Assembly: GCA_003282895.1 (NCBI GenBank)
Contig: QBYI01000004.1
Coordinates: 1 to 38,664 of the forward strand
Length of the DNA: 38,664 bases
Reading direction: 5' to 3'
From: Pelagibacteraceae bacterium AG-325-F15
GTDB taxonomy: Bacteria; Pseudomonadota; Alphaproteobacteria; Pelagibacterales; Pelagibacteraceae
The notes beneath the pieces are model-generated. The model saw only the letters and a program-made list of their open reading frames with translations, ran no database searches and was not told the DNA's origin. Below, piece by piece: positions 3,167 to 15,417 of the stretch (its first letter is position 1; every line of letters starts with the position of its first letter). The position numbers were made by a program, and so were the translations under genes.

Positions 3167-3994
3167 CTATAATTGACCTTTTTTAGGTGCACCTTTATAA
3201 AAAATTTCTTGAAGATTGTCATTTTCCTTTTTTTTTAACTTAAGGTCTTTTTCACTCATTAACAATGAAGTTCTCTCAATTTTTTCGTGATAATTATAAC
3301 TATCCACACCTCTAGCTAATTGCACACTATTTTTACCTATGATTTGTTTAACATTTGCTCCAATATAGCTTTGGATAACAAATCCTATTCTTCGGTCGTC
3401 ACTTTTGTTTAAATCTGAACCATGTACCACAGTTGGATGGTGTAATGACATTTGACCTGCTTTTAATATCAAAGGAGTTGTTTTTTCTTTAGGCACATTA
3501 TTAACAGTCTGACCTCTGGTTAATAAATTTCCTTCATTAAACATCTGATCATGATCTTTTAAACTATCTTTATGAGAACCTGACCACATTCTCATGCAGC
3601 CATTGTGTTCATTAGAATCTGTTATTGCAACCCAAGCAGTCACCCAATTATGAGGCTCCAATCCAATATATTTTGCATCTTGATGATAGCTAACAAAACC
3701 TTTTTCATTAGGATTTTTGATAAAAAGAGTCGTTCCACAAACAAGTATATCCTCACCAATTAAGCTTTGAACAGCATCTAATATTTTAGGATGATGTGTA
3801 ACTTCATCTAATAAAGGTGAAATTAAATGAGCATTATATCTACCTGACTTATCTAATTCACCAGGCATTTCTTTTTCTATTAATTCTATTTCATCTCGAA
3901 TTTCTTTTGCCTTTTCTTTTGAAAAAATATTTATTGGCGAAACAAATCCTTCATCCTCATATTGTTTAAGTTGATTTGAAGAAAGATAAGACAT
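3167..3994 (-). CDS. Phytanoyl-CoA dioxygenase (PhyH) family Fe(II)/2OG oxygenase
   Basis: SYHQDAKYIGLEPHNWVTAWVAITDSNEHNGCMRMWSGSHK (HxD), HHPTVVHGSDLNKSDDRRIGF (distal His/Arg). Confidence 0.88.
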   Translation of the reverse strand: MSYLSSNQLKQYEDEGFVSPINIFSKEKAKEIRDEIELIEKEMPGELDKSGRYNAHLISPLLDEVTHHPKILDAVQSLIGEDILVCGTTLFIKNPNEKGFVSYHQDAKYIGLEPHNWVTAWVAITDSNEHNGCMRMWSGSHKDSLKDHDQMFNEGNLLTRGQTVNNVPKEKTTPLILKAGQMSLHHPTVVHGSDLNKSDDRRIGFVIQSYIGANVKQIIGKNSVQLARGVDSYNYHEKIERTSLLMSEKDLKLKKKENDNLQEIFYKGAPKKGQL

Positions 3995-7982: not shown

Positions 7983-8525
7983 TTAATCATCTGCATGAAC
8001 TTTTTCATCTTTTTCATGCTTTTCTTGTGCGGCGATTGTATATTTAGCTACAGGTCTAGCCATTAATCTTTTTAATCCAATTGGTTCAGCAGTATCTAGG
8101 CAATATCCATAAATATCTTCTCGAATTCTTGCTAACGCTTTATCGATTTCTGAAATTAGTTTTATTTGTCTGTTAATAGCTTTCATCTCAACATTTTTAT
8201 CAGTGTATGAACTTGCTTGATCGACAATATCAGCAGAAATGCTGTTATCATCCATGCTACCGTTATAAAGTGCCTCATTATTTGCTTTAACTAATTCTTT
8301 TTTCCATTCTGTCAGTCTCATTCTAAAAAATACCTTATGTTTTTCGCACATATATTTTTCAGTATCTTTTGGAACATAAGTCTTGGAAATTTTTATAGGT
8401 GCTTTAGCAACTATTTTTGGCTTGCTTACTGTTTTAGCTTTTGCTTTAGTAACTTTAGCTTTAACTTTTGAAACTTTAGCTTTAACTTTTGAAACTTTTT
8501 TTTTAACTTTAGTAGTCTTCGGCAT
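7983..8525 (-). CDS. DksA/TraR-family regulator with a lysine/alanine-rich histone-H1-like N-terminal tail
   Basis: C-terminus YGYCLDTAEPIGLKRLMARPVAKYTIAAQEKHE is DksA-like. The N-terminus is KVKKKVSKVKAKVSKVKAKVTKAKAK repeats. Confidence 0.87.
   Translation of the reverse strand: MPKTTKVKKKVSKVKAKVSKVKAKVTKAKAKTVSKPKIVAKAPIKISKTYVPKDTEKYMCEKHKVFFRMRLTEWKKELVKANNEALYNGSMDDNSISADIVDQASSYTDKNVEMKAINRQIKLISEIDKALARIREDIYGYCLDTAEPIGLKRLMARPVAKYTIAAQEKHEKDEKVHADD
8425..8515. repeat. ~21 bp tandem repeats encoding the 7-aa (KVKAKVS) units of the DksA tail
   Basis: Plus strand shows successive ctttagctttaacttttgaaa units (TTTAGCTTTAACTTTTGAAAC repeated); boundaries approximate. Confidence 0.8.
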
Positions 8526-8603
8526 ACTTAAAAATTGAATTTCCGGAGTATATTCAGCAAATTAGGGGTGTCAAGTAAGCTGAATTAATATTAATATTTA
8601 TAA

Positions 8604-9926
8604 ATGACCAATTATACCAAGAATATAAATAATATATTTTACATCTTTGTTTTATCACATCTTTTATTTTGGACATTGGTACCATCTTTAACAAATCATA
8701 ATTTACCACTTGATACTATTGAAGCTTTAGCTTGGGGAAGTAATTTAGACTGGGGATTTAACAAGCATCCACCAATGAGTGCATTTTTTCCAGAAGTTTT
8801 TTTTCAAATTTTTGGTTCACAAGATTGGGCTTACTATTTACTTAGTCAAATTTTTGTAATTATTTCTTTTTATTATGTTTTTAAACTTTCAAAAGAAATT
8901 TTAAAAAATGATTTACTAAGTTTAATTTCAGTTCTACTTTTGGAGAGTATCTATTTTTACAATTTTACAACCCCAGAATTTAATGTAAACGTTTGCCAAC
9001 TCCCATTCTGGTCATTAACAGTTTATTTTTCTTGGAAAATTTATAGTGGAAAAAACATTAAATTTACGGATTGTTTATTAATAGGATTTTTTGCAGCTTT
9101 TGGGTTTTTATCAAAATATTTATTTCTATATCTTTTAGTTTCAATTGATCTTTTATTTTTTTACTTAATTTTTATTAAGAAAAATAAAAAGTTTGATTTT
9201 AAGTATGTAATATCACTTGAAGTCTTTTTGGTTGTTTTAGTCCCTCATTTAATTTGGTTAAACAATAACGATTTTATAACTTTAACTTATGGACTAGCAA
9301 GAACTGGTCTAGAACAATCAAGTTTAGTTGATCATATCAAATTTCCATTAATTTTTATTGCAAAACAAATTGGAATATTAATTCCATTTTTATTTTTAGT
9401 CATGCTGTTAGTTAAAAAAATTAAATTTAAAATAAATTTTAATAACAAAGAACAACTTTTTTTAATTGTAATAAATGTTGTGCCTATCTTTTTAATGTTT
9501 TTAACTTCAGTGATAACTGGCTCAAAAATAAGAACCATGTGGATGACACCTTTTTATTTATTTTTTGGAACTTTTTTTGTTTATTTTCTTAAAACTCAAA
9601 TTAATATTAAAAATCTAAAACCATTCATTTCTGGGTTTCTATTTTTATTTTTTATATCTCCAGTGATTTATTCATACATATCAATTTCAAAAGAAGATAA
9701 GAGAACAGATTACCCAGGTAAAGAAATTGCCATTAAAACTCAATATGCTTGGGATCAGCAATTTAGTTCAACAATAAATGTCGTTTACGGAAATGAATGG
9801 AATGCTGGTAATTTATCTTACCATCTAAAATCAAGACCTGTTTGGGAGGGTATTGTTGAAAGGAATAAACTTGATCAATTGAAAGACTATATGTGTCTTG
9901 ATAATGTTTGTGTTGGATCTAAGTAA
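8604..9926 (+). CDS. Glycosyltransferase family 39/ArnT-like polytopic membrane protein
   Basis: 440 aa multi-TM; N-terminal LPLDTIEALAWGSNLDWGFNKHPPMSAFF with acidic/HPP motif typical of GT39-like dolichyl/undecaprenyl-P-sugar transferases. Confidence 0.8.
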   Translation: MTNYTKNINNIFYIFVLSHLLFWTLVPSLTNHNLPLDTIEALAWGSNLDWGFNKHPPMSAFFPEVFFQIFGSQDWAYYLLSQIFVIISFYYVFKLSKEILKNDLLSLISVLLLESIYFYNFTTPEFNVNVCQLPFWSLTVYFSWKIYSGKNIKFTDCLLIGFFAAFGFLSKYLFLYLLVSIDLLFFYLIFIKKNKKFDFKYVISLEVFLVVLVPHLIWLNNNDFITLTYGLARTGLEQSSLVDHIKFPLIFIAKQIGILIPFLFLVMLLVKKIKFKINFNNKEQLFLIVINVVPIFLMFLTSVITGSKIRTMWMTPFYLFFGTFFVYFLKTQINIKNLKPFISGFLFLFFISPVIYSYISISKEDKRTDYPGKEIAIKTQYAWDQQFSSTINVVYGNEWNAGNLSYHLKSRPVWEGIVERNKLDQLKDYMCLDNVCVGSK

Positions 9927-9928
9927 AG

Positions 9929-10801
9929 ATGAAAAAGTATACAATTTTAATTCCAATTTATAATGACAGAGAATCTTTAACAAAATTAATAGAAAATATA
10001 AATTTCGAAGCAAAAAATCTTACATCTCAGATATCAATAATTGTAGTAAATGATGCTTCATCCCAACAAATTACGGACAATTATTCTAATACTGAAAATA
10101 TAAATAGTATTGAAATTATAAACATGAAAGAAAATAGAGGTCATGCAAGATGTATCGCCTCAGGATTAAAGTATATTTTTGAAAAAAAAGAATTTGATTA
10201 TGTTATTCCAATGGATGGAGATGGGGAGGATAGGCCTGAAGAAATCAAAAGCTTTATTCAACTAGCAGAACAACCCAATGATAAAACTATAGTTGGGGAA
10301 CGAACTAAAAGATCTGAAAATTTATTTTTTAAAACTTGTTATCAATTACATAAACTTTTAACCTTAGGTTTTACTGGTCATTCAATTAAGTTTGGTAATT
10401 TTACCTGTTTATCCAAATCAACTATTGAAAAAATGTTAAATGAAAAAGCTACTTGGAATAGCTTTTCTGGTTCATTAAAAAAAGTAGAAAAAGATTTGTT
10501 AGCCATACCTTCCGTAAGAGGGACAAGATATTTTGGCCCATCTAAAATGAGTTTTTTTAACTTATTAAAACACTCCCTTTCAATTATAAGTGTATTTCGA
10601 AAAACAGTTTTAATTCGCTCGGCTTTATTTATAGTTTTTTATATTCTTCTAATGCAAAGCAATGCATCAATTATCACTTCAGTTCCTTTGGTTTTGTTAC
10701 TGATAATGATTTATTCAATTTCAAGTTTAGCTTTAAGAGAAAATTTAGATGAATTTAATAAGTGTTTGTTAAATATTAATGATATTGAAAAAATAAAATG
10801 A
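9929..10801 (+). CDS. Glycosyltransferase family 2
   Basis: YTILIPIYNDRESLTKLIENI, VVNDASSQ, NRGHARCIASGLKY, VIPMDGDGEDRPEEI; C-terminal TM segments. Confidence 0.88.
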   Translation: MKKYTILIPIYNDRESLTKLIENINFEAKNLTSQISIIVVNDASSQQITDNYSNTENINSIEIINMKENRGHARCIASGLKYIFEKKEFDYVIPMDGDGEDRPEEIKSFIQLAEQPNDKTIVGERTKRSENLFFKTCYQLHKLLTLGFTGHSIKFGNFTCLSKSTIEKMLNEKATWNSFSGSLKKVEKDLLAIPSVRGTRYFGPSKMSFFNLLKHSLSIISVFRKTVLIRSALFIVFYILLMQSNASIITSVPLVLLLIMIYSISSLALRENLDEFNKCLLNINDIEKIK

Positions 10802-11685
10802 TAAAAAAAATTTTTAAAATTTTACTACCAGTTTTAATTCTATTTAATTCAAGTTATGCAGAGCCTATTGTGGTCAAAAAAACAAAATGGCATCATATGG
10901 ATATCAAAAAACATTTTGAAGTAGTAACTGAAAATGTTCGTGCTGGTAAAACTGCGCAAAAATTTGAAATTAGACACGGTGAATGTAAAAAACAAGACTG
11001 TAAGTGGGGTGCACATAGGACTGAAAAACACTTAAAGATTTATCAATTTTCAAAAAAAAAATTTAAAGATCCTGTATTTTATGCTGTAAGCGTTTTTATA
11101 CCTGAAGATTTTGGGTATGATTTTGTAGCTTCAAAGATGTCAATGTTTCAAGCTAAAATGATGGGAGTTGATATGCCACTTTGGATGGTTTCAACTCAAG
11201 GGTCTGGCTTTCAAGTAAGATTAGGTCACTATAAAAGATGTGAAGTGCACTCATTTAAAAAAGGGACCTGGAATGATTTTGTGGTTAAGACAAATTATAG
11301 TAGAGAGAGAGTTAAAGGTGAAAAATATTTTGAATTATGGTGGAATGGAAAAAAAATAGATGAGTGCACACACTATATTCCTTTTATAACGAAAAAACAT
11401 ATTCAAGAATCGAAAAGTCATGGGTGGAGTAGCAATAAACAACAAATTAATATGAGATATGGTATCTACAAATTTAGAGTAGGTGATTACTTATCTCAAA
11501 TAGCTAAGAAAAAACCTAAAAAAATGAAGACCATGACACAACCAAGTGGTATGAAAAATATAATAAATCCTTTTAAATATGATTGGGGCGTTAAAATTCC
11601 AACAACAATAATGTTGTATGATGAAATTAGGATTGGCAAAAGCTTCAATGAAGTAGATATAAAAACAAATGATCCTGTCGATTAA
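10798..11685 (+). CDS. Putative secreted polysaccharide lyase (heparin-lyase-I-like jelly roll)
   Basis: Signal peptide; KFEIRHGECK, FYAVSVFIPEDF, GTWNDFVVKTNYS, FELWWNGKKI, MRYGIYKFR, MLYDEIRIGKSFNEV, consistent with the Polysacc_lyase family. Confidence 0.6.
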   Translation: MIKKIFKILLPVLILFNSSYAEPIVVKKTKWHHMDIKKHFEVVTENVRAGKTAQKFEIRHGECKKQDCKWGAHRTEKHLKIYQFSKKKFKDPVFYAVSVFIPEDFGYDFVASKMSMFQAKMMGVDMPLWMVSTQGSGFQVRLGHYKRCEVHSFKKGTWNDFVVKTNYSRERVKGEKYFELWWNGKKIDECTHYIPFITKKHIQESKSHGWSSNKQQINMRYGIYKFRVGDYLSQIAKKKPKKMKTMTQPSGMKNIINPFKYDWGVKIPTTIMLYDEIRIGKSFNEVDIKTNDPVD

Positions 11686-11690
11686 GATTT

Positions 11691-12836
11691 ATGAAAAAAC
11701 TTTTAATAATTATGTTATCTTTGTTTGTATTTGTACCTGTTCAAGCTAAGGTTAAATCTAAAGATATTAATTTTCCAGGAAAATTTTATACCGATAAAAT
11801 TAAATCTTGTGAAGTATTAGAAGATATTACAATGAGCTCGAGACTCTTTAGTGATATTTTTAGAGTTAAGGGTTTTGTTGGATATGATTGGCATAGTGAT
11901 CATCAAAAAAATAGTACATCACTAACAGTTAAACATGAAAACATTACTGAACCTATTAAAATTTTGATGTTACTGGCTCACAACTCTTTATCAAATAAAG
12001 ATCAATATAATATTAAAGAGGCAAAAGATTTATTAGTTGAAATAGCAAAAGCAGATACGTTGTATGACTCAATTGATCCTGAGGGTCTTAAAAAGAAACC
12101 TAAGTGTTGGAAGAATAGTGATGTGAACGCTCCATGTTGGTATCATGAATATCAATTCGCAAGAGATGTTTTTGGTAATTACATGATTTCTGCGATTTGG
12201 TTAAAATCTGAATTAGACGATAGTGAGTTTAAAATTATAAATACATATATAAAAAAGATGTATAAGAAATTTTTAAAACCAAAAGAGTTTGAACCTACCG
12301 ATAGAGGATTTTATCAAATGGCTAATTCTGGTATACCAACATTAGTTTATGCCTCTTGGTCTAATGATAAAAAACTTGCTGCAAAAGAAATTAATTTCAG
12401 ATTTAAACAAATAGATAAATTATTTTATGATGATGGATACATTAACAATAATTCATTCAGGGGTGTTAGAGCTCAATGGTATCACTCTTATGGCTTAAAT
12501 CCTGCTCTTGCATATGTTTATATTTCAAATTTATGGGGAGCAAAAGTTCCTGAAAAGATTATCAAAAAATTAACTAATGCAGGTCTCGTTGCCAATCTAG
12601 CTTTAAAAGATTATGAGAAATTTAGAAGTCGACCATTTACTGGTGAGTACAATGAAAATATAACTGAGGATCCAAAACACGCAAGAAAGCATACACATCA
12701 AGACGCAATCGGAATCGATGTACTAATGGAATTGGTTACAGGTGTAAAATTAGAAAATGATCCAATTTATCTTCGAAAAAGAAATATAACTGGCATAGAT
12801 GACACTATAGGCTTCAACCCTCATTGTATTAAATGA
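11691..12836 (+). CDS. Putative secreted alginate-lyase-like alpha/alpha-toroid protein
   Basis: Signal peptide; WYHEYQFARDVFGNYMISAIWLK, DRGFYQMANSGIPTLVYASW, DDGYINNNSFRGVRAQWYHSYGLNPALAYVYI, helical-repeat pattern as in alginate lyase domains. Confidence 0.5.
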   Translation: MKKLLIIMLSLFVFVPVQAKVKSKDINFPGKFYTDKIKSCEVLEDITMSSRLFSDIFRVKGFVGYDWHSDHQKNSTSLTVKHENITEPIKILMLLAHNSLSNKDQYNIKEAKDLLVEIAKADTLYDSIDPEGLKKKPKCWKNSDVNAPCWYHEYQFARDVFGNYMISAIWLKSELDDSEFKIINTYIKKMYKKFLKPKEFEPTDRGFYQMANSGIPTLVYASWSNDKKLAAKEINFRFKQIDKLFYDDGYINNNSFRGVRAQWYHSYGLNPALAYVYISNLWGAKVPEKIIKKLTNAGLVANLALKDYEKFRSRPFTGEYNENITEDPKHARKHTHQDAIGIDVLMELVTGVKLENDPIYLRKRNITGIDDTIGFNPHCIK

Positions 12837-12846
12837 AGCAATCTAT

Positions 12847-14127
12847 TTAATTAGTTCTAATCGTTGGTAGTGAATAAAAATCAGCTGTATCTATCTTAGA
12901 AGAATACTCTCTTTTCATATTCCATCTCTTTTGAACGCCAGCGCTTGCAACACTTAAGGTAGATCTTCCGTATCGATGATTAGTATTATCAATAGACCTC
13001 ATTAAATTGCTAATTTTCTCATCTTTTTCAGATGAAAATAGATTAGTTTTATCATTAGCGTTAGACAATCCCGTAAGCATAACACCTGCTTTTTGATATT
13101 GGTAACCATTTTTGAATATACCCTCTAATATTGTAACTGCAGTTTTAACTACTTCGATACTATTGTTTGTTGCAATTGGAAAATCAATTGTCTTTGCATT
13201 TGAATAATATCCGTAGTTTCTTTGAAACGGACTAGTTCTAACAAATACTGTAATTGCTTTTGCAACTAAAGATTCTGATCTAATTTTTTCAGATGCATTC
13301 AAACAATAGCTTGCAACTGCTTCTTTCAATTCTTGAAATTTCTCAATTCGTTTCCCAAATGATCTTGAGACAACACAACTTTTTCTTTTTGTTGTAGTAG
13401 TTTCTAAGTTAATACAAGGAATACCCTTAAGCTCCATTGCAGTTCTAGAACTTAAAACATTAGAAGATTTTTTAATCCAACTATTAGATTTATTCTTAAG
13501 TTGTTTTGCATTATAAATTCCATTCTTTTGATAAAATTTTGTTAACTGTCTACCAACACCCCATACGTCATTAATTTCTACTTTTTCAAGAACAGGATCC
13601 AAGTTATCAATACCAATTAAACTAGTAACCCCTGATTGCTTTTTTTTTGCAATATGGTTTGCAATTTTACTTAGAGTTTTTGTTTTAGCAATTCCGATAC
13701 TAGTTGGAATACCAGTCCATTGTAAAACTGTTTCTCTAATTTCTTTTCCAACTTTTTCTACATCTTGATCTGGAAAATTTGATAAATCTAAAAATGCTTC
13801 ATCAATAGAATAAATTTCTATATCAGAATTAAATCTTTTAAGAGTTCGCATTACTCTTCTAGATAGATCGCCATATAAAGAATAATTAGATGAAAAAACT
13901 TCTACTTTATTTTTAATAATAATATCTTTTGCTTTAAAGTAAGGTTCACCCATTTTAATTCCTAAAGCTTTTGCTTCATTAGATCTTGAAATAATACAAC
14001 CATCATTATTAGATAAAACAACAACAGGTTTTCTTCTTATTTTAGGATTAAATAATCTTTCACAAGAAACGTAAAAAGAATTACAATCAACTAATGCTAT
14101 TTTTTTAGTACGTAGAATGGATGACAT
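12847..14127 (-). CDS. umuC: Y-family DNA polymerase V subunit UmuC
   Basis: IALVDCNSFYVSCERLFNPKIRRKPVVVLSNNDGCIISRSNEAKALGIKMG, EIYSIDEAFLDL, PTSIGIAKTKTLSKIAN. Confidence 0.95.
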   Translation of the reverse strand: MSSILRTKKIALVDCNSFYVSCERLFNPKIRRKPVVVLSNNDGCIISRSNEAKALGIKMGEPYFKAKDIIIKNKVEVFSSNYSLYGDLSRRVMRTLKRFNSDIEIYSIDEAFLDLSNFPDQDVEKVGKEIRETVLQWTGIPTSIGIAKTKTLSKIANHIAKKKQSGVTSLIGIDNLDPVLEKVEINDVWGVGRQLTKFYQKNGIYNAKQLKNKSNSWIKKSSNVLSSRTAMELKGIPCINLETTTTKRKSCVVSRSFGKRIEKFQELKEAVASYCLNASEKIRSESLVAKAITVFVRTSPFQRNYGYYSNAKTIDFPIATNNSIEVVKTAVTILEGIFKNGYQYQKAGVMLTGLSNANDKTNLFSSEKDEKISNLMRSIDNTNHRYGRSTLSVASAGVQKRWNMKREYSSKIDTADFYSLPTIRTN

Positions 14128-14500
14128 AAGTTACAACTCCCCAAATAAAAATATCTTGTTCTTCGTTAATTAAAATTCTGTCAGTAAATTCTTTAGATCC
14201 TGAAGTTAAAAACTTTTTATCTCTTTCTTGAACTAAACTTTTAACCACAAGTTCATCATGAACATTTGCTATTACTGTTGAAAAATTTTTTGGCTTTAAA
14301 CTTTTATCGACAACCAGCAAATCTCCATCATTAATCCCAACATCCACCATTGATTTACCTTGCACCCTGATGATGAAGGTAGCTGGAACGTTTCTTATTA
14401 AATGCATGTTAAGATCAATATCTTCTTCGATATAATCAGTTGCAGGAGATGGAAAACCAGCACCTGCTTTATGTAGATAATATGGGATAGTTAGCTTCAT
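14105..14500 (-). CDS. umuD: UmuD, LexA-like S24 self-cleaving protein
   Basis: AGAGFPSPATDYIEEDIDLN (A-G cleavage site), VQGKSMVDVGINDGDLLVVD (Ser), ELVVKSLV (Lys); 23 bp overlap with umuC. Confidence 0.92.
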   Translation of the reverse strand: MKLTIPYYLHKAGAGFPSPATDYIEEDIDLNMHLIRNVPATFIIRVQGKSMVDVGINDGDLLVVDKSLKPKNFSTVIANVHDELVVKSLVQERDKKFLTSGSKEFTDRILINEEQDIFIWGVVTYVIHSTY

Positions 14501-14681: not shown

Positions 14682-15050
14682 ATGAAAACATTAACATGTC
14701 ATTGTGGTGCAGTGGAAATCCAAGTTAATCTTAAAAAGGAAATAGATAAATTAATGAGATGTAATTGTTCAATGTGTAAAAGAAAAGGAACGATGGTTAC
14801 AACAATTAATAAAGAAGATTTAAAAATTGTTAAAGGAGAAGATAAAATAAAAATTTATCAGTTCAATACAAAAGTAGCTAAACATCATTTTTGTTCAGAG
14901 TGCGGAGTTCAAACTCATAATTTAAGAAGAAGTGATCCAAATACTTATGGTATTAATGTAGGGTGCATAGATGAAATAAAACCAAACGAGCTATTTAAAC
15001 TAAAGACCTTTATTAACGATGGTCAAAATCATATAAAAGACAGGAAATAA
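14682..15050 (+). CDS. GFA/CENP-V domain zinc protein, copy 1
   Basis: LTCHCGAVEIQ, RCNCSMCKRKG, HHFCSECGVQTHN Cys ligands. Confidence 0.88.
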   Translation: MKTLTCHCGAVEIQVNLKKEIDKLMRCNCSMCKRKGTMVTTINKEDLKIVKGEDKIKIYQFNTKVAKHHFCSECGVQTHNLRRSDPNTYGINVGCIDEIKPNELFKLKTFINDGQNHIKDRK

Positions 15051-15051
15051 A

Positions 15052-15417
15052 ATGAAAAAATTAACATGTCATTGTGGAGCAGTTGAGGCAGAAATTAATT
15101 TGGATGGAGATTTAGCAAAGGTTATAAAATGTAATTGCTCTATTTGTAAAAGAAGAGGAGCAATAATGTCTATGGTCAAAAATGAGGATTTTAAAATTGT
15201 AAAAGGTGAGGGTAAATTAAAACTTTATCAATTTCACACAAACGTTGCTAAACATTATTTCTGTTCTGAATGTGGAATTTATACTCATCATAATCCGAGA
15301 GTTAATCCAGCAATGACAGGTTTTAATGTTGGTTGCATTGATGAAATAAACACTTTTGACTTAAAAGATGTTCCAGTAAATGATGGTCAGAATCATCCAT
15401 TAGATCAAAAAAAATAA
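15052..15417 (+). CDS. GFA/CENP-V domain zinc protein, copy 2
   Basis: LTCHCGAVEAE, KCNCSICKRRG, HYFCSECGIYTHH; clearly paralogous to the upstream gene. Confidence 0.88.
   Translation: MKKLTCHCGAVEAEINLDGDLAKVIKCNCSICKRRGAIMSMVKNEDFKIVKGEGKLKLYQFHTNVAKHYFCSECGIYTHHNPRVNPAMTGFNVGCIDEINTFDLKDVPVNDGQNHPLDQKK

Follow-up and report, generated by a model that had tools for sequence, protein, structure and literature searches.

This work describes a gene insertion site in Pelagibacteraceae bacterium AG-325-F15, a member of the marine SAR11 group, as it appears in a 38,664-nucleotide stretch of the genome (contig QBYI01000004.1, positions 1 to 38,664, here called the window). Between dksA and umuC, four plus-strand open reading frames (ORFs) at 8604-12836 encode a family 39 glycosyltransferase (GT39), a GT2 enzyme, and two secreted polysaccharide lyase (PL)-like proteins, designated PL_A and PL_B. 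In the explanation that we favor, with slightly better than even confidence, a polymorphic SAR11 site, ordered dksA-GT39-GT2-cargo-umuCD, holds a constant envelope glycosylation pair and, behind it, secreted lyase cargo that is exchangeable. Sequence comparisons among relatives show that the lyase-like genes are exchangeable cargo inserted gene-precisely after GT2, and that the four genes together are one sample of the polymorphic site and do not form a system by themselves. SAR11 bacteria are abundant in the ocean, have small genomes, and are treated as living on small molecules and ignoring polysaccharides; lyase cargo is unexpected in this group.

The interval was read in 40 relatives, nearly all picked by the presence of GT39, and in additional single-cell genomes found via PL_B. 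In the 30 relatives in which dksA and umuC lie on one contig, all of which had been selected for having GT39, the space after GT2 was empty in 10, contained carbohydrate-active enzyme (CAZyme)-like cargo in 12, and contained other cargo in 8. At nine of the empty sites, the GT2 stop codon is within -7 to +7 bp of the umuC stop codon; at the tenth (L194), there is a gap of 67 bp containing an apparent signal peptide relic. Cargo types include PF14099 proteins of several subfamilies, PF05426 alginate lyases (cargo c50 matches this family at 109 bits), glycoside hydrolase family 10 (GH10)-like proteins, PL_B, amidohydrolases, FG-GAP proteins, DUF1800 with DUF1501, and urease and phosphoenolpyruvate (PEP) carboxylase genes, the latter two named by eye. 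Pairs of DUF1800 and DUF1501 have been reported to be linked to bacterial chitin synthases (PMC5122149). Of 101 relatives, 7 had a detected PL_B homologue and 4 a close homologue of PL_A, and the exact order GT39-GT2-PL_A-PL_B was seen in the window only. At this site, the window is closest to L079, which carries DUF1800, DUF1501, a PL_B of 84% identity, and urease genes, with no PL_A. With conserved flanks, content that differs among relatives, and empty sites, the locus has the properties of a flexible genomic island, as a preliminary description of this DNA had supposed in suggesting that the genes between dksA and umuC may be a swappable island.

The constant part of the locus consists of a polytopic GT39/PMT_2 glycosyltransferase of the ArnT-like class (8604..9926, plus strand; PF13231, 98.6 bits) and an ArnC-like GT2 polyprenyl-phosphate sugar transferase (9929..10801, plus strand; PF00535, 60.6 bits), the two assignments being those first made from the sequence. 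GT39 was found in 48 of 61 genomes of the same genus, most of which are incomplete, and in none of 40 genomes of the sister family; GT2 neighbors GT39 in relatives. The glycosyltransferase pair is a near-core feature of the genus. The presence of the pair in 30/30 intervals was dropped as evidence, as those intervals had been selected by GT39. The GT2 protein has C-terminal hydrophobic segments and a DxD-like motif (PMDGDGEDRPEE), and its best solved relatives are the ArnC structures 9hwj and 9bhc (E of ~1e-15; 2e-15). As in the ArnC/ArnT undecaprenyl-phosphate sugar pathway, an ArnC homologue stands alongside a PMT_2 GT39 partner and both have membrane segments. However, the window GT2 scores 73.5 bits against the curated ArnC model NF007986, far under its cutoff of 529, and no further arn genes lie alongside. 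Enzymes of the GT39 class use polyprenyl-phosphate sugars, and ArnC/ArnT-type enzymes attach single sugars and do not build polymer.

The first variable gene, PL_A (gene 3; 10798..11685, plus strand), encodes a putatively secreted PF14099 polysaccharide-lyase-like protein (54.9 bits; cutoff, 29.9). Direct phmmer searches of the Protein Data Bank (PDB) with PL_A and PL_B gave no match. A profile of SAR11 PF14099 proteins matched one solved structure, the glucuronan lyase TrGL (2zzj), with an E of 1e-13, placing PL_A Q118 and Y224 in alignment with TrGL Gln91 and Tyr200, which we take to be the catalytic residues. Y224 is invariant among 16 sequences, and Asp stands in place of Gln in one subfamily (the 334-336 amino acid [aa] group). 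On this alignment, PL_A is predicted to keep the catalytic Gln118 and Tyr224. The best folds for its low-confidence AlphaFold2 (AF2) model were PL7, PL28, and PL13 lyases, among unrelated jelly rolls. PL_A resembles PL20 glucuronan lyase (2zzj) and PL13 heparin lyase I (3imn) in its score over the PF14099 cutoff, its tentative jelly-roll prediction, and its Gln/Tyr pair aligned with that of TrGL, but it is only remotely identical to them and has tandem paralogues in SAR11.

The second variable gene, PL_B (gene 4; 11691..12836, plus strand), encodes a putatively secreted protein predicted by AF2 and fold comparison to form an AlgL-like alpha/alpha toroid. PL_B has no Pfam match at an E of 0.01 and so none to PF05426. 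The alginate lyase likeness ascribed to it was absent from Pfam and from the direct PDB sequence search but emerged in profile and fold comparisons. AF2 modeling on 22 sequences gave a predicted local distance difference test (pLDDT) score of 87.9 and a predicted template modeling (pTM) score of 0.88. Foldseek returned AlgL (7sa8 and 4ozv) and A1-III (1qaz) as the best PDB folds, with polysaccharide lyases making up all of the top 50; against 4ozw, the template modeling (TM) scores were 0.58/0.65 with a probability of 1.00. A PL_B profile that included PF05426 cargo matched PL5 lyases at an E of 1e-19. R257 and Y264, invariant in 22 sequences, match the Arg/Tyr of PL5 (R239/Y246 in A1-III numbering, with N191/H192 as the Asn-His pair). 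In PF05426 relatives, as in 7fhz, N-H occupies the positions aligned with that Asn-His pair. We considered PL_B as a PL5 member and rejected this assignment; despite the AlgL-like fold, PL_B was kept out of PL5 because the defining Asn-His is absent. Compared with AlgL/PL5 lyases (4ozv, 7sa8, and 1qaz; Smlt1473, 7fhu), PL_B has in common the alpha/alpha toroid, predicted export, and aligned active-site R257 and Y264, but it differs in lacking a PF05426 match and the Asn-His pair, in its identity of only ~12-15%, and in its N- and C-terminal parts.

PL_B was also found far from the glycosyltransferase pair. Its contexts include the his operon, positions beside galU-ugd, tRNA-Leu islands, a gammaproteobacterium, SAR116, and viral contigs. 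At 14 loci (L112, L115, L117-L123, L125, L126, L129, L138, and L086), PL_B lies between hisH and hisA in the direction of the operon, and at two others galU-ugd-PL_B has an operon-like arrangement, the genes lying 0 to 9 bp apart (L139:359-3742 and L140:7616-11008). In the PL_B tree, which was obtained by a quick search with midpoint rooting and has many open forks, the copies at the dksA site are polyphyletic (8 changes needed, at least 3 of them forced by supported branches), the his operon copies form one clade, and the window copy pairs with that of L079, near gammaproteobacterial and viral copies. One row, L182_6655, is a long-branch outlier that was probably misclustered and was ignored. 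One- and two-gene blocks with 97.5-99% DNA identity are shared by the dksA-umuC and tRNA-Leu sites, with limits running from ~17 bp before the ATG to ~10 bp after the stop codon. Genes for thymidylate synthase and a phage-family ATPase, among others of phage families, lie on the viral contigs; no match came from a search of 50,697 named phage records. A PL_A relative lies in genome G004 (L257), ~7 kb upstream of tRNA-Leu, and another is beside the same region in L258. The GC fractions of the two lyase-like genes (0.300 and 0.296, compared with 0.300 for the window) are not foreign-looking; because base composition gives no foreign signal, the case for cargo mobility is built on synteny and the tree, which show that PL_B is horizontally mobile.

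The tRNA-Leu sites take the form of tandem mini-islands in tRNA-Leu(TAA), seen at L110:763-960 and 3429-3626; L104:5569, 8620, and 11286; L092:9790, 11286, and 14138; and L098:6974, 8620, and 11286. Each starts with the 39-nucleotide 5' half of tRNA-Leu followed by three AGTCY repeats spaced at an 11-bp period. It closes with an 11-bp direct repeat, after which comes either the next copy or the intact tRNA-Leu. The cargo, in islands of 1.5-2.7 kb, is PL_B alone, an amidohydrolase with PL_B (c39+PL_B), or an 831-aa secreted protein. Inside the mini-islands, one or two cargo genes were found and no recombinase. Most genomes of the genus have one Xer-like match, which is not beside the NAD kinase gene and tRNA-Leu where both could be placed. 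A mini-island of this kind is also present in the genome that the window comes from (L259:340-2690; G000:C21), with a half tRNA-Leu at 444, an intact tRNA-Leu at 2652, and a single cargo gene for a 622-aa secreted protein at 651-2519. Its 11-bp repeat half-site (CCAGTACC) is identical at both ends and differs from that of the upstream island, CTAGTACC. A tandem run of five pilin-like genes (FTLIELLVVVAIIGILAAVGVVAYSGYTSGAK) adjoins the NAD kinase gene in this genome, at L259:3524-6027.

A DNA segment, ATGAAAAAACTTTTAGGGATCGTGGTTCTGGG, whose product is the signal peptide MKKLLGIVVLG, stands at the start of unrelated secreted proteins and is found as well in stop-truncated relics at island ends. 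It gave 29 matches in 21 of the 61 genomes and none with a reversed control, with locations including L090:11131, L110:767, L145:8901, L147:9740, L229:1501 (minus strand), and L235:1501. The segment was considered as a trait of the genes in the window and rejected, since it is not present there. Like tycheposons and other tRNA-anchored additive islands (PMC10872708), the PL_B mini-islands are bounded by truncated and intact tRNA-Leu. In contrast, they are only 1.5-2.7 kb long, hold one or two genes, and are without a tyrosine recombinase, and the dksA-umuC site of the window has no tRNA at its edges. We tentatively suggest, as a possibility less likely than not, that gene-precise lyase cassettes of one or two genes may travel in SAR11 via phages and via recombinase-less tRNA-Leu mini-islands, whose 11-bp direct repeats are element specific and matched at both ends. 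The cassettes would be reinserted from start to stop at the dksA-umuC site, behind the glycosyltransferase pair, and in core operons such as his, yielding lineage-specific repertoires.

Under the favored explanation, in which a constant glycosylation pair precedes exchangeable lyase cargo, GT2 would load a sugar onto undecaprenyl phosphate in the cytoplasm and GT39, working from the periplasmic side, would pass that sugar to an acceptor in the envelope, by analogy with ArnC and ArnT, respectively. PL_A and PL_B, to judge from their families, would leave the cell via Sec and cut a uronate-containing polysaccharide. PL_A would do so by a PL20-like Gln/Tyr beta-elimination, and PL_B would rely on Tyr264/Arg257 and a neutralizing residue that has been rearranged, inside a barrel like that of AlgL. 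With lower confidence, we propose that the target may be a glycan of the cell's own or a kindred cell's surface, remodeled differently in each lineage, and not food. We favored surface glycan remodeling because 2-keto-3-deoxy-6-phosphogluconate (KDPG) aldolase was not detected, GH88 is rare, UDP-glucose-dehydrogenase (Ugd)-like matches are common (50 of 61 genomes, that of the window included), and a galU-ugd-PL_B operon exists. In a search of uronate pathways confined to these two markers, KDPG aldolase was found in 0 of 61 genomes (with positive controls in 8 of 14 reference genomes) and GH88 in 1 of 61, which weighs against catabolic use of the products. The viral carriers of lyase-like genes were likewise counted in favor of own-surface targets.

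Several observations weigh against this explanation. PL_B has about seven insertion contexts, of which galU-ugd is a single one and so counts as weak evidence, and Ugd is in any case near-core. Genes of clearly metabolic function (urease, PEP carboxylase, ammonium transporter, and aromatic degradation genes) also occupy the site, and the cargo therefore need not relate to the glycosyltransferase pair. As to the predicted lyase roles of PL_A and PL_B, the AF2 model of PL_A is beta-rich but weak (pLDDT of 67.8), a PL_B profile without PF05426 relatives reaches PL5 at an E of only ~0.2, though in register, and none of the PL_B sequences has Asn-His at the PL5 positions. Inspection of the catalytic sites, on which the preliminary description had staked its lyase assignments, was accordingly split, with PL_A keeping the predicted Gln/Tyr and PL_B lacking the PL5 pair.

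The replacement of Asn-His in all PL_B proteins also raises the alternative that PL_B is no longer a lyase and that its AlgL-like scaffold has been reused for binding or another reaction. We regard this as somewhat unlikely, given that R257, Y264, H265, H336, and C149 are invariant across 17 diverse PL_B sequences, which suggests a conserved active site. Alternatively, the secreted lyases could serve in scavenging, cutting algal or dissolved acidic oligosaccharides that enter via porins, with the cell eating the products. The site does accept other nutrient cargo, such as urease and an ammonium transporter, and its arrays of PF14099, PF05426, and GH10-like genes, some with a sulfatase, resemble a small degradation locus. 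This alternative nevertheless appears unlikely, as KDPG aldolase and GH88 have the distribution given above, no sugar importer or TonB receptor was recognized in the lyase arrays, and PL_B is often a lone gene in the his operon or tRNA-Leu islands.

A third possibility, which we consider unlikely but which, like scavenging, still competes with remodeling, is that these are phage-derived genes that alter the cell surface, by superinfection exclusion or receptor removal, and that cells have retained as a defense. PL_B and PL_A relatives with export signals do occur on viral contigs bearing phage-type genes, the site is highly variable between close relatives, and SAR11 myophages are reported (PMC7029224) to encode numerous glycosyltransferases whose presumed role is modification of the host surface. 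However, such viral contigs number only 4 for PL_B relatives and 1 for PL_A relatives, the named phage records were without a match, and most of the cargo was not found in phage. Finally, a dedicated minimal four-gene system that makes and trims a glycan, like alginate secretion with AlgL, had been proposed in the preliminary description. In its favor are the operon-like spacing, a PL_B fold nearest AlgL, and an ArnC-like GT2 beside GT39, but it is very improbable and largely refuted because the four genes do not co-occur in relatives, ArnC/ArnT-type enzymes add single sugars, and the processive synthase, copolymerase, and outer-membrane porin of an alginate-type synthase-dependent export system are absent from the four genes and their immediate neighbors; the preliminary description itself had noted the lack of a polymerase-exporter set.

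A SAR11 site of exchangeable lyase cargo bears comparison with hypervariable regions 1 to 4 (HVR1-4) of this group (PMC2217521) and with the O-chain cluster (PMC11898729), which likewise have conserved flanks, replaceable content, and surface-related genes. The O-chain cluster differs in its location, HVR2, within a split rRNA operon. For strain HTCC1062, the published HVR gene ranges (PMC2217521) omit the neighborhood of recA (SAR11_0641), a comparison made by the position of recA. An earlier account of SAR11 lyase islands was not found in the literature searched, whose coverage left out most subscription journals. The number of secreted CAZyme-like genes at the site ranges from zero to several, and some of these genes are common to SAR11, SAR116, a gammaproteobacterium, and viruses. 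This would imply strong local selection, in one of the very abundant groups of marine bacteria, on either surface glycan variation or access to acidic polymers. The dksA-umuC cargo offers a testable gene-shuffling system in streamlined genomes, and PL_B, as a putative AlgL-like family that has diverged and whose active site is altered, may be of use to enzymology.

In its own genome (1.0 Mb, ~70% complete, in 75 contigs), the four-gene run is tightly packed on one strand, as first described and as confirmed by the ORF calls, with spacings of 2, -4, and 5 bp; the 4-bp overlap of the GT2 and PL_A ORFs is ATGA. The four ORFs were taken to be real genes because homologues of all four occur in other genomes without internal stops. 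Sec-type signal peptides, read from the sequence, are predicted on both PL_A (...NSSYA followed by EPI) and PL_B (...VPVQA followed by KVK), in keeping with the original call of two secreted lyase-like proteins, now backed by PF14099 for PL_A and the AlgL-like fold for PL_B. The conserved left flank is dksA (7983..8525, minus strand; PF21157/PF01258 and TIGR02420), which flanks nearly all loci with GT39 and is divergent from the run across a 78-bp intergenic region (8526..8603). The conserved right flank comprises umuC (12847..14127, minus strand; family models and synteny in relatives), convergent with the run and 10 bp downstream of it, and umuD (14105..14500, minus strand; family models). 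Two tandem GFA-family (PF04828) genes, at 14682-15050 and 15052-15417, adjoin umuD.

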